Source of the DNA: Methanomicrobiales archaeon HGW-Methanomicrobiales-3
Lineage (GTDB): Archaea; Halobacteriota; Methanomicrobia; Methanomicrobiales; Methanospirillaceae
Reading direction: 5' to 3'
Assembly: GCA_002839605.1 (NCBI GenBank)
Contig: PGYK01000014.1
Location: 1 to 32,255, forward strand
DNA length: 32,255 nucleotides
Position 1 is the first letter of the stretch. The number at the start of each line of letters is the position of its first letter. The notes below the pieces were generated by a model. It ran no database searches and was not told the origin of the DNA. It saw only the letters and a program-made list of their open reading frames with translations. Below, one piece after another: positions 28,196-32,255 of this stretch. The position numbers and the translations under genes are program-made.

Positions 28196-29704
28196 TTATT
28201 TCCGGACTGCGGCTATCGCTTCTGTCACGTATTCCACCAGTTCCTCGCCAAAGCCCGGATAAATACGCAGGTGGCCCATATCGAACGGGACAGAGAGCCG
28301 CTGCAACCGGGCACTGTCCCCGTCCGGGGACTGGCAGGGGCGGATGCCGGTGAAGACGAACCCCGCATCTTCCGCCAGATTCATGAGCAGGGCCGTGGCA
28401 GGCTGGGCAAGCGGCAGGTCGATGTCCACGACTTCGGCACCGGCCAGATCCTCCATGTCCTGCGCCACCCGCAGGATCTCCGGCCATTGGTGCTCATCTG
28501 CGGTTATCACGGTTATAATCCCTTTCTGCAGGGACCGGTCGAAATGGACCCGGAAATCGCCAGCAGATGTTGCGGGTCCCGGTTCGCCCATCGTGCAGGG
28601 TTGCTTGAAGTTGTCGTAGATCCTCGCAACCATCGCACGATGCCGTGTGGGGACATGGGCCGTGACAGGCGGGGGCGGAGTCAGGTATTTGAAGCAGTGG
28701 ATATAGGACTCGCGCTGGGGCCTGGCATCCCCGCTGACCAGTGCCCTGAACTCGCGGGGGGGACAGGCAGCAAGGTCAAGATCGCAGGGGACAAATCCAA
28801 ACCGGTATGTCTCCTTCTGGCTGATGGGATGGCTGGTGACCGGGTTTCCCGAGAGGCCGCACAGCCCCATTGCTCCAGCCCTGTCAGCAAGAGCATGCAG
28901 GAGCGATTCCATGATATGGCGGCCGCGGTGGGCCGGAGAGACTACGAGAAGGGCCAGTTCGGCCATGGGAACCGGGTCCGGCCGGAGGAGGCCGGCATGT
29001 CCTGCCACCTCGCCGTCTTCCCCGACTGCAACGTAACTGATGACATGGCCGCTCCCGATGAGATGGAGCAGGCCTTCCGGCCGGTAAAAGTCCTCGTTCT
29101 TGTAGCTGTACCCATAGGCAAGCCAGAAGAGGCGGGAGACCTGCGCTGCCTCCTCGGGGCGCATGGGCCGGATCTCATAGTTCTGTTCGGGAGCAGGAGG
29201 TATCGCAAAAACCTCCTGTACCGGTTCGTTTGTGGTGGGTTCCGCGAGCCTTTTTATGAGGCGGAGCACCTTTCCCCGCCTTCCAAGGTTCTCGAAACGG
29301 ACCTCATCGGCAGCGTTCCTTATAAGCCGGAACCCGAGGCCGCGCTCCGTCACCTCCCCGTCTTCTGTATCGGTACCGGGATACTGGTCGGGGCCTGTCT
29401 CGAAGGGAATGCCCTCGTCCCGGAACGAGATCTCAAGTTCGCTCACACCCAGCACGCCGCCGATATAAATGTCGCCTGCCCTGCACCCGGGATAGGCATG
29501 CTCAAGAATGTTGTCGAACGCTTCCTCACTTGCAACCTCAAGGAGCAGGACCTCGTCGGACGGGAGGCCGGCAGCCCCGGCCAGTTCCCGGACAAACCCC
29601 TGGACGATCGCAAGGAAACGCCGGTCGGGAGGAACCGTGAGGTTCAGGGTAAGGGGCTGGCCCGTCCCGGGCCTTTTTGCGGGGCTTGTGGAGGTCTCGG
29701 ACAT
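28196..29704 (-). CDS. Anti-sigma-type ATPase fused to a GNAT domain
   Basis: About 502 residues. The N-terminal 150 residues are an RsbW/SpoIIAB-like ATPase: LTVPPDRRFLAIVQGFVREL, the N box EEAFDNILEHAY, the G1 DEGIPFE and the G2 ERGLGFRLIRNAADEVRFE. A GNAT domain follows (about 172-330): YEIRPMRPEEAAQVSRLFW, then motif A LLVVSPAHRGRHIMESLLHA. The last 170 residues (from about 330) contain TARHRAMV-like and FRVHFDRSLQKGIITV stretches that I do not recognise, perhaps a second degenerate GNAT-like part. Archaea have no sigma factor, so the ATPase must act on another partner. The ATG at 29704 is used; one at 29725 adds seven residues. It is the first gene of an operon with the MFS exporter. Confidence 0.83.
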   Translation of the reverse strand: MSETSTSPAKRPGTGQPLTLNLTVPPDRRFLAIVQGFVRELAGAAGLPSDEVLLLEVASEEAFDNILEHAYPGCRAGDIYIGGVLGVSELEISFRDEGIPFETGPDQYPGTDTEDGEVTERGLGFRLIRNAADEVRFENLGRRGKVLRLIKRLAEPTTNEPVQEVFAIPPAPEQNYEIRPMRPEEAAQVSRLFWLAYGYSYKNEDFYRPEGLLHLIGSGHVISYVAVGEDGEVAGHAGLLRPDPVPMAELALLVVSPAHRGRHIMESLLHALADRAGAMGLCGLSGNPVTSHPISQKETYRFGFVPCDLDLAACPPREFRALVSGDARPQRESYIHCFKYLTPPPPVTAHVPTRHRAMVARIYDNFKQPCTMGEPGPATSAGDFRVHFDRSLQKGIITVITADEHQWPEILRVAQDMEDLAGAEVVDIDLPLAQPATALLMNLAEDAGFVFTGIRPCQSPDGDSARLQRLSVPFDMGHLRIYPGFGEELVEYVTEAIAAVRK

Positions 29705-29725
29705 GGTGGTTACTCGAATGATCAT

Positions 29726-30930: not shown

Positions 30931-31540
30931 TGAAGGCGAATTTTTCTTGCGCGATCCTGCGCTGATACACCTGAACCCGGAAAACCGGATCAATGCAGCA
31001 TGGAAGTGTGCCGCACCCCCTCCAGGTTTCCCGCTCCGGCCCGGAAAAATATGCGCGATCGGTTTCGTGAATTTGCACATACTAAGGAGGTGGTGCATCT
31101 CACATTGAGCAATTCCAGGAGCTGCCCGAAGATGCGTCAGGTTGCGGCACCTTCACAAAATTTCCTGCTCCGGACCCGGAATTCATGCGCGATTGTGCGG
31201 TCCTGCAGAAAACCGGACCGGGGACAACCAGCCGGAATCCCGATTGCAGGGATTCCGCAGGTCCATGCGCGACCTGGGGCAGGATCCGGGCTGCAAACCC
31301 CCCTGGCGGGCGTTTACAGTCGGTGGGAGGATTTTTTCCACCATGCGCCGGGATTGCGCCCGGGCAGGATGTATGCACGGGAAAACCCGGTTTTTGCGGA
31401 TCGCGCAGGTTGGGAATCTGGTGTACAAATCGGAAAAAATACCCGGTAATTGATGTTTGGGTGCCGAAATAAGATTATCGGGATCCCGTATATTTTCCCG
31501 GCAATACAACCGCAGAAAAAAGGTGATTTTTCGCCGGAGA

Positions 31541-31567
31541 TCATCTTTAAATGCCGGCCTGTGCAAT
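31541..31567 (+). promoter_or_regulatory. Possible weak upstream rRNA promoter
   Basis: CTTTAAATG (about 31543-31551) could be a TATA box, followed by GTGCAATATG (31561-31570), similar to the TGCAA-type initiators of methanogen stable-RNA promoters. The match is weaker than in the three later promoters and the spacing to the first of them (about 117 nt) is shorter than the later period. Confidence 0.3.
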
Positions 31568-31592
31568 ATGTAGATCCACAAAATCTGATGAC

Positions 31593-31700
31593 AAACCGAC
31601 GAAACCGCTCCTCCGTGGAGCAGGTGTCGGTTTCGAGGGAAAAACAATGCAGGAAACAAGGTATAAATACCCCCACATCCTACATTGTAAGCCCGTGAAC
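31593..31700 (+). promoter_or_regulatory. rRNA promoter module 1 (hairpin, TATA, initiator)
   Basis: A two-step stem-loop (AAACCGAC 31593-31600 with GTCGGTTT 31626-31633; inner GCTCC with GGAGC) is followed 29 nt later by the TATA box GGTATAAATAC (TATA core 31662-31669) with BRE-like AAACAA before it. The likely start of transcription is about 31687-31691 in TTGTAAGCCCG. The first transcribed bases, GCCCGTGAACGCGTGAAA, recur in module 2 and form a small hairpin (CGTGAAATTTCACG). Confidence 0.8.
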
Positions 31701-31749
31701 GCGTGAAATTTCACGTCGGAGTTCGCTGATCAGGTTCGCCTGATACAGG

Positions 31750-31845
31750 GCAGGACAGCCGGTTTTCCGGTCCTGCTCTGGTGACAAACGATGCAGGCAA
31801 GAAGGTATAAATACCTCCGCGCCCTACATTGTAAGCCCGTGAACG
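31750..31845 (+). promoter_or_regulatory. rRNA promoter module 2
   Basis: The stem-loop GCAGGA (31750-31755) with TCCTGC (31771-31776), inner CCGG/CCGG around TTTT, precedes the TATA box GGTATAAATAC (core 31806-31813) by 30 nt. The likely start lies at about 31831-31835 (TTGTAAGCCCG). The sequence around TATA and initiator is nearly identical to module 1, offset by 144 nt. Confidence 0.8.
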
Positions 31846-31892
31846 CGTGAAAATCACGACGAAGATTCACACCATCAGGCATCCCTTATGAA

Positions 31893-31995
31893 GGGCCAAA
31901 CAAGCCAGGTTCCCTGGCCTTGGTCCCGATGGAAAAGACTGCATGCAACAAGGTATAAATATCCTTGAAACATACAGTAATAGCCCGTGTTCAGT
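31893..31995 (+). promoter_or_regulatory. rRNA promoter module 3
   Basis: The stem-loop GGGCCAA (31893-31899) with TTGGTCCC (31920-31927), inner GCCAGG/CCTGGC, precedes the TATA box GGTATAAATAT (core 31954-31961) by 27 nt. The initiator is less conserved (CAGTAATAGCCCG, start near 31980). It is the promoter closest to 16S rRNA, with a leader of about 175 nt. Confidence 0.8.
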
Positions 31996-32157
31996 CAAAC
32001 AACACGACGAACACACACAATCTTTCTTTGATGGAGATCCAACGATACCCGGCTTGACCGGAGTTGGTTCTGACGTTGGCATTGGCAATGCGGAAATTTG
32101 TTTAATAACCGCTCAATTCCTTAAGAACAGTTCAGTAAGTGTGCGTATATTTGAAGA

Positions 32158-32255
32158 ATTCTGGTTGATCCTGCCAGAGGCCACTGCTATCGGAGTTCGA
32201 TTAAGCCATGCGAGTCGAGAGGTGCAAGACCTCGGCATACTGCTCAGTAACACGT
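32158..32255 (+). rRNA. rrs: 16S ribosomal RNA, 5' end
   Basis: The sequence from ATTCTGGTTGATCCTGCCAG onward is the universally conserved 5' end of small-subunit rRNA, in its archaeal form. It continues with GGCCACTGCTATCGGAGTTC and AAGCCATGCGAGTCGAGAGG, typical of Methanomicrobiales. Only the first 98 nt are inside the window. The mature 5' end is placed by similarity. Confidence 0.98.

Follow-up and report, generated by a model that had tools for sequence, protein, structure and literature searches.

A hairpin repeated after each tandem promoter in the rRNA leader of Methanomicrobiales archaea

Four promoters and four hairpins precede the 16S rRNA gene

The window (the whole stretch of 32,255 nucleotides analyzed here) is a contig end from an archaeal genome of 2.6 Mb and stops 98 nt inside the 16S rRNA gene. 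Upstream of this gene, four promoters and four hairpins follow one another, with hairpin H1 after promoter P0, H2 after P1, H3 after P2, and H4 after P3 (Table 1). The promoters are predicted by sequence match; the series of TATA boxes on the sense strand 5' of 16S is as expected for tandem rRNA promoters of archaea. Elsewhere in the window, positions 28196-29725 (minus strand) encode one protein in which Pfam domains of a histidine-kinase-like ATPase and a GNAT acetyltransferase are joined. No relative was found when viral contigs were queried with a neighbouring protein.

An earlier note on this DNA had described three GGTATAAATA boxes 144 and 148 nt apart, each preceded by a stepped hairpin. 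Both the boxes (P1, P2, and P3, with exactly this spacing) and the three hairpins were found where it had placed them, while P0, H4, the leader stems after P1-P3, and the inverted repeats around the P1-P3 TATA boxes had been overlooked.

Table 1. Features of the rRNA leader region, in window positions
Feature	Position	Strand	Sequence or description	Basis
P0	31546..31553	+	first TATA-like box, TTTAAATG	sequence
H1	31584..31639	+	P0-leader hairpin; kink-turn-like flanks TCT-GAT-GA-C ... C-GA-AGG, asymmetric internal loop, inner arm	R1 match and fold
H1 outer stem	31593-31600 / 31626-31633	+	AAACCGAC / GTCGGTTT	sequence, fold
P1 inverted repeat	31644..31688	.	centred on P1 TATA, ACAATGCAGGA / TCCTACATTGT	sequence, pairing tests
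P1	31660..31669	+	GGTATAAATA	sequence
P1 leader stem	31690..31726	+	AGCCCGTGAACGCGTGAAATTTCACGTCGGAGTTCGC, at predicted RNA 5' end	fold (-20.3 kcal/mol, z -2.2)
H2	31746..31780	+	P1-leader hairpin; stem retained, GATGA/GA flanks gone	inverted repeat and fold
H2 stem	31746-31756 / 31770-31780	+	CAGGGCAGGAC / GTCCTGCTCTG	sequence, fold
P2 inverted repeat	31788..31832	.	centred on P2 TATA, ACGATGCAGG / CCTACATTGT	pairing tests
P2	31804..31813	+	GGTATAAATA	sequence
P2 leader stem	31834..31871	+	CGTG..CACGACGAA	fold, motif
H3	31887..31929	+	P2-leader hairpin, TATGA-A-GGGCCAA ... TTGGTCC-C-GA; stem inside 31893-31926	R1 match
P3 inverted repeat	31938..31978	.	centred on P3 TATA, ACTGCATG / CATACAGT	pairing test
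P3	31952..31961	+	GGTATAAATA	sequence
P3 leader stem	31982..32014	+	GCCCGTGTTC..AACACGACGAACAC	fold, motif
H4	32030..32073	+	terminal hairpin of the pre-16S leader, GATGG-AGATCCAAC ... GTTGGTTCT-GA; adjoins 16S processing stem	R2 match
16S processing stem, 5' strand	32074..32112	+	bulge-helix-bulge stem	pairs with 16S trailer in complete relative L114
16S rRNA	32158..32255	+	start of gene, at contig end	Rfam RF01959, E 1.3e-18

Compared with 200 dinucleotide shuffles each, H1 and H2 fold with z-scores of -3.0 and -3.7, respectively. In a search of the whole genome, model R1 matched H1 at 31578-31642 (E 3.7e-10) and H3 at 31878-31935 (E 3.2e-4), and did not detect H2. The fold of H3 has a z-score of only -1.05, with 31 of 200 dinucleotide shuffles folding equally well, but R1 matches it; thus, this hairpin is secured by comparison and not by energy. 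A second model, R2, which was built from the terminal hairpins of one family, matched H4 at 32021-32081 in the same genome (E 8.3e-13). All matches of R1 and R2 in this genome are confined to the rRNA locus. An Rfam search of 31450-32180 returned no known RNA family at E<=1, and membership of such a family was rejected.

Stable hairpins between promoters might act as transcription terminators or insulators, a role that the earlier note had considered. A terminator scan of 31450-32170 yielded zero terminator-like sites, and termination is unlikely because no T-tract follows any of the hairpins. Moreover, the rRNA leader itself contains the same hairpin, and stopping transcription at that point would leave no rRNA. 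We consider this explanation highly improbable.

Every hairpin forms a unit with the preceding promoter

We compared the DNA 5' of 16S from about 60 genomes within the family and then from other families. Relatives are referred to as Methanoregula-like genera or as Methanoculleus-like (family f4), the genus assignments being inferred. In the family as a whole, the start of the hairpin is found 36-42 nt 3' of the TATA box; units with an inserted extra stem have 66-90 nt instead. Nearly all first-promoter hairpins of the Methanoregula-like genera, and many upstream ones in other genera, show a distance of 40-42 nt; in relatives of genera g1 and g8, a P0-type box precedes the first hairpin by 40-41 nt. 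Of 34 terminal hairpins from other genera, 30 have their start 36-38 nt 3' of TATA. For the weaker promoters of these genera, the best-matching sequence within 30-95 nt of the hairpin was assigned as TATA, which is partly circular, although the pile-up at 37 and 41 nt is not. Deviating distances come mainly from units with an inserted stem, and values of 66-90 nt occur only in g1/g8 units bearing this CGTG..CACGACGAA stem, a motif that follows 40 distinct g1/g8 promoters and is found only in these two genera.

Between the hairpin end and the next TATA box, Methanoregula-like genera mostly have 23-28 nt (with outliers of 35, 52, and 66 nt), and the family's other genera mostly 35-104 nt. The earlier note had placed each hairpin 27-30 nt before TATA. 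In the window, this spacing holds (approximately 24-27 nt from stem end to GGTATA), but it does not generalize: a constant distance before TATA is fixed only in some genera, and it is the distance from TATA to the following hairpin that is constant. On these distances, the hairpin as a general pre-TATA element was rejected outside a few genera. Since the distance from TATA to the following hairpin is constant and that from the hairpin to the next TATA is variable, the hairpin belongs to the promoter before it, and each hairpin is part of the leader RNA of its upstream promoter.

The Methanoculleus-like arrays comprise about five promoters. They are at odds with a strict start-proximal rule, since their upstream hairpins are distant from the start site; for 32 of 46 promoters, 15 nt separate the end of such a hairpin from the next TATA box. 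The terminal hairpin keeps its usual spacing. No such hairpin is present upstream of the first promoter in these arrays; thus, the hairpins are confined to the transcribed leader here as well.

The fold is conserved beyond the family

Selection for shape, as the differing stem sequences had suggested in the earlier note, is supported by compensatory base changes in relatives. In the upstream hairpins, 92% of outer-stem cells are paired, two-sided changes occur in all eight of eight pairs, and the covariation score is 0.424 (0.217 after shuffling), and the terminal hairpins are 96% paired, both sets coming from a scan that required a stem and GA...GA, so that pairing and the conservation of GA are overestimated. 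Three checks less affected by this bias support the fold. In the first, RNAalifold, applied to ten whole three-promoter leaders with no structure preselection, recovered the hairpins, with two-sided changes in 13 of 67 pairs.

The other two checks were covariance searches. Model R3, trained only on P0 hairpins from two genera, recovers the element in further genera and families; 43 of its 44 matches lie on the rRNA-sense strand. R2 matches 106 of the 135 genomes of the class, covering all six families, and an R2-type element was weakly matched in two genomes outside the class. Two contigs labelled Methyloversatilis and Deltaproteobacteria (L137 and L167) carry a Methanomicrobiales rRNA leader motif and are probably mis-binned.

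Three groups (Methanoregula-like P0, Methanoculleus-like, and other-genus terminal) show a folding signal of z about -2 at +40..+89 after TATA. For P0 leaders selected by an anchor only, the mean z-score is a modest -1.1 (control, -0.3), and folding z-scores were rejected as sole proof because a mean of this size is too weak. A comparison of G-U with A-C in the hairpin stems was not decisive for strand. Taken together, hairpin position, homology, fold conservation, and restriction to rRNA operons are well supported. One hairpin design recurs throughout the order Methanomicrobiales, and in relatives its fold is preserved through paired base changes.

Inverted repeats around the TATA boxes

The arms of the TATA-centred inverted repeats co-vary between units and genomes; for example, both sides have changed between P1 (AATGCAGG/CCTACATT) and P3 (ACTGCATG/CATACAGT). 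At P1-P3 of the Methanoregula-like genera, 246 cells form Watson-Crick pairs versus 216 +- 4, and the pairing has a z-score of 7.5 relative to swapped partners. Local alignment detected a comparable dyad in Methanoculleus-like arrays (p 0.0007). The same test was not significant at P0, where the dyad is weak or absent, or at other-genus terminal promoters, and the TATA-spanning dyad was rejected as a general feature. The G-U versus A-C strand test weakly favours RNA in this dyad. The dyad would be better explained by read-through RNA that starts at upstream promoters and folds than by a protein site.

It had been suggested in the earlier note that the hairpins may form cruciforms read by a regulator. 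Such a DNA-level element before each promoter would agree with the dyad at P1-P3 and with the fixed distance from hairpin end to TATA in Methanoregula-like (approximately 25 nt) and Methanoculleus-like (15 nt) genomes. However, this spacing is lost in other genera, first promoters have no upstream hairpin, and one hairpin lies 3' of the last promoter. The one-sided strand distribution of the cross-model (R3) matches also speaks against it, and strand-specific matches together with restriction to the transcribed leader disfavour a cruciform. We regard a DNA-level element as very unlikely.

With regard to the origin of the array, promoter and leader appear to have been duplicated together as tandem units, the copies then diverging. 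A single-contig genome, L034, contains three near-identical tandem promoter-leader units of 132 nt (positions 710-1146). They represent a recent expansion of the promoter array.

Kink-turn-like ends and the relation to 16S processing

Hairpin copies open with (G)ATGA and close with GA, which is a kink-turn or box C/D-like signature. GA on both strands beside the NC helix, a feature of kink-turns, is found in H1 and H3 and has been lost in H2; H4 has GATGG. By inspection, 5' TGA and 3' GA are also present in 22 P0 leaders picked solely by their ATCCACA anchor. A kink-turn would also have a three-nt bulge and then a paired C helix; the C helix of the proposed kink-turn is 73% paired in P0 hairpins and, more weakly, 55% paired across the family. 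Internal C'/D' boxes and guide stretches, which a box C/D guide sRNA would have, are absent, and the interior is a covarying helix that leaves no room for a guide.

These ends suggest another possible role, in which the hairpin would act in cis within the 16S leader, as a box C/D-like or U3-like element, to aid 16S folding or maturation, with upstream copies kept through co-transcription with the leader. The GATGA/GA and GATGG/CTGA flanks and the position beside the 16S processing stem agree with such a role, as do a C/D-like leader-trailer fold (Tang et al. 2002, as cited in PMC7038931) and U3-like leader sequences (Dennis 1997, as cited in PMC3608112), both proposed earlier. It is quite unlikely in our opinion, given the helical interior devoid of C'/D' boxes or a guide and the redundancy of several upstream copies for this purpose.

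The hairpin might instead be a processing site, that is, a cleavage signal by which P0, P1, and P2 transcripts are trimmed to the P3 5' end before 16S maturation. In read-through RNA, RNAalifold predicts structure for both the hairpins and the internal-promoter regions, and the terminal copy adjoins the 16S processing stem. However, this copy is located 3' of the last promoter, where nothing is left to trim to, and the hairpins do not resemble bulge-helix-bulge substrates by inspection. A processing site seems unlikely.

A proposed signal in nascent rRNA transcripts

On balance, we think it somewhat probable that the hairpins constitute an RNA element in the 5' leader of pre-rRNA, with one copy per promoter, which serves as a docking site on the nascent transcript and has spread by unit duplication. 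Each promoter would start its own transcript, whose leader would fold the two-step hairpin approximately 10-15 nt after the expected start, or later where an extra stem has been inserted. The fold, flanked by GATGA and GA, would resemble a kink-turn. Promoter-plus-leader units would duplicate in tandem and drift in sequence with the fold kept, the last copy being placed directly beside the 16S processing stem. The nascent hairpin may dock an RNA-binding protein, most plausibly a kink-turn binder; L7Ae, whose binding is predicted, is the first candidate because of the kink-turn-like ends. The docked protein could mark the transcript for rRNA-specific elongation, processing, or both. We propose that every promoter has its own hairpin copy because the signal must sit near the 5' end.

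A bolder version, which is possible but doubtful, is that this is a dedicated archaeal rRNA-transcript signal: a kink-turn-like hairpin that would start every rRNA transcript, be functionally comparable to the bacterial antitermination leader, and be kept separately at each tandem promoter across a methanogen order. The bacterial leader (Nus/SuhB complex; PMC6614801) would likewise be a signal near the transcript start; the resemblance would be a functional analogy.

Some components of this locus are already known. In PMC4983044, tandem rRNA promoters are described for haloarchaea, with five in Halobacterium cutirubrum and three start sites in Haloferax volcanii; these also lie in series before 16S, 100-150 nt apart in Haloferax. 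The passages concerned do not mention a hairpin repeated per promoter, whereas here each promoter has a copied leader hairpin. The 16S leader-trailer RNA with its predicted C/D box-like fold, as cited in PMC7038931, shares the location in the pre-16S leader by the bulge-helix-bulge stem and the C/D-like ends, but it is made by ligation, while the hairpin is complete within the leader and repeated upstream. Kink-turns bound by L7Ae in archaeal leaders (PMC5539422, PMC6298567) are also 5'-leader hairpins with box C/D-like strands and tandem G-A flanks; they control mRNA translation, whereas the present element lies in rRNA leaders and its L7Ae binding is putative. In the searchable literature, no account of a hairpin recurring at every rRNA promoter was found, and within this scope the repeated leader hairpin looks like an undescribed RNA signal carried by rRNA transcripts.

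Little is known about how the archaeal polymerase completes long untranslated rRNA without premature termination, or how leaders feed into 30S maturation. The conserved hairpin, copied with every promoter, is a defined element to mutate in this regard. Moreover, the array shows a route to tandem rRNA promoters, in which promoter-plus-leader duplication would be followed by drift under structural constraint.
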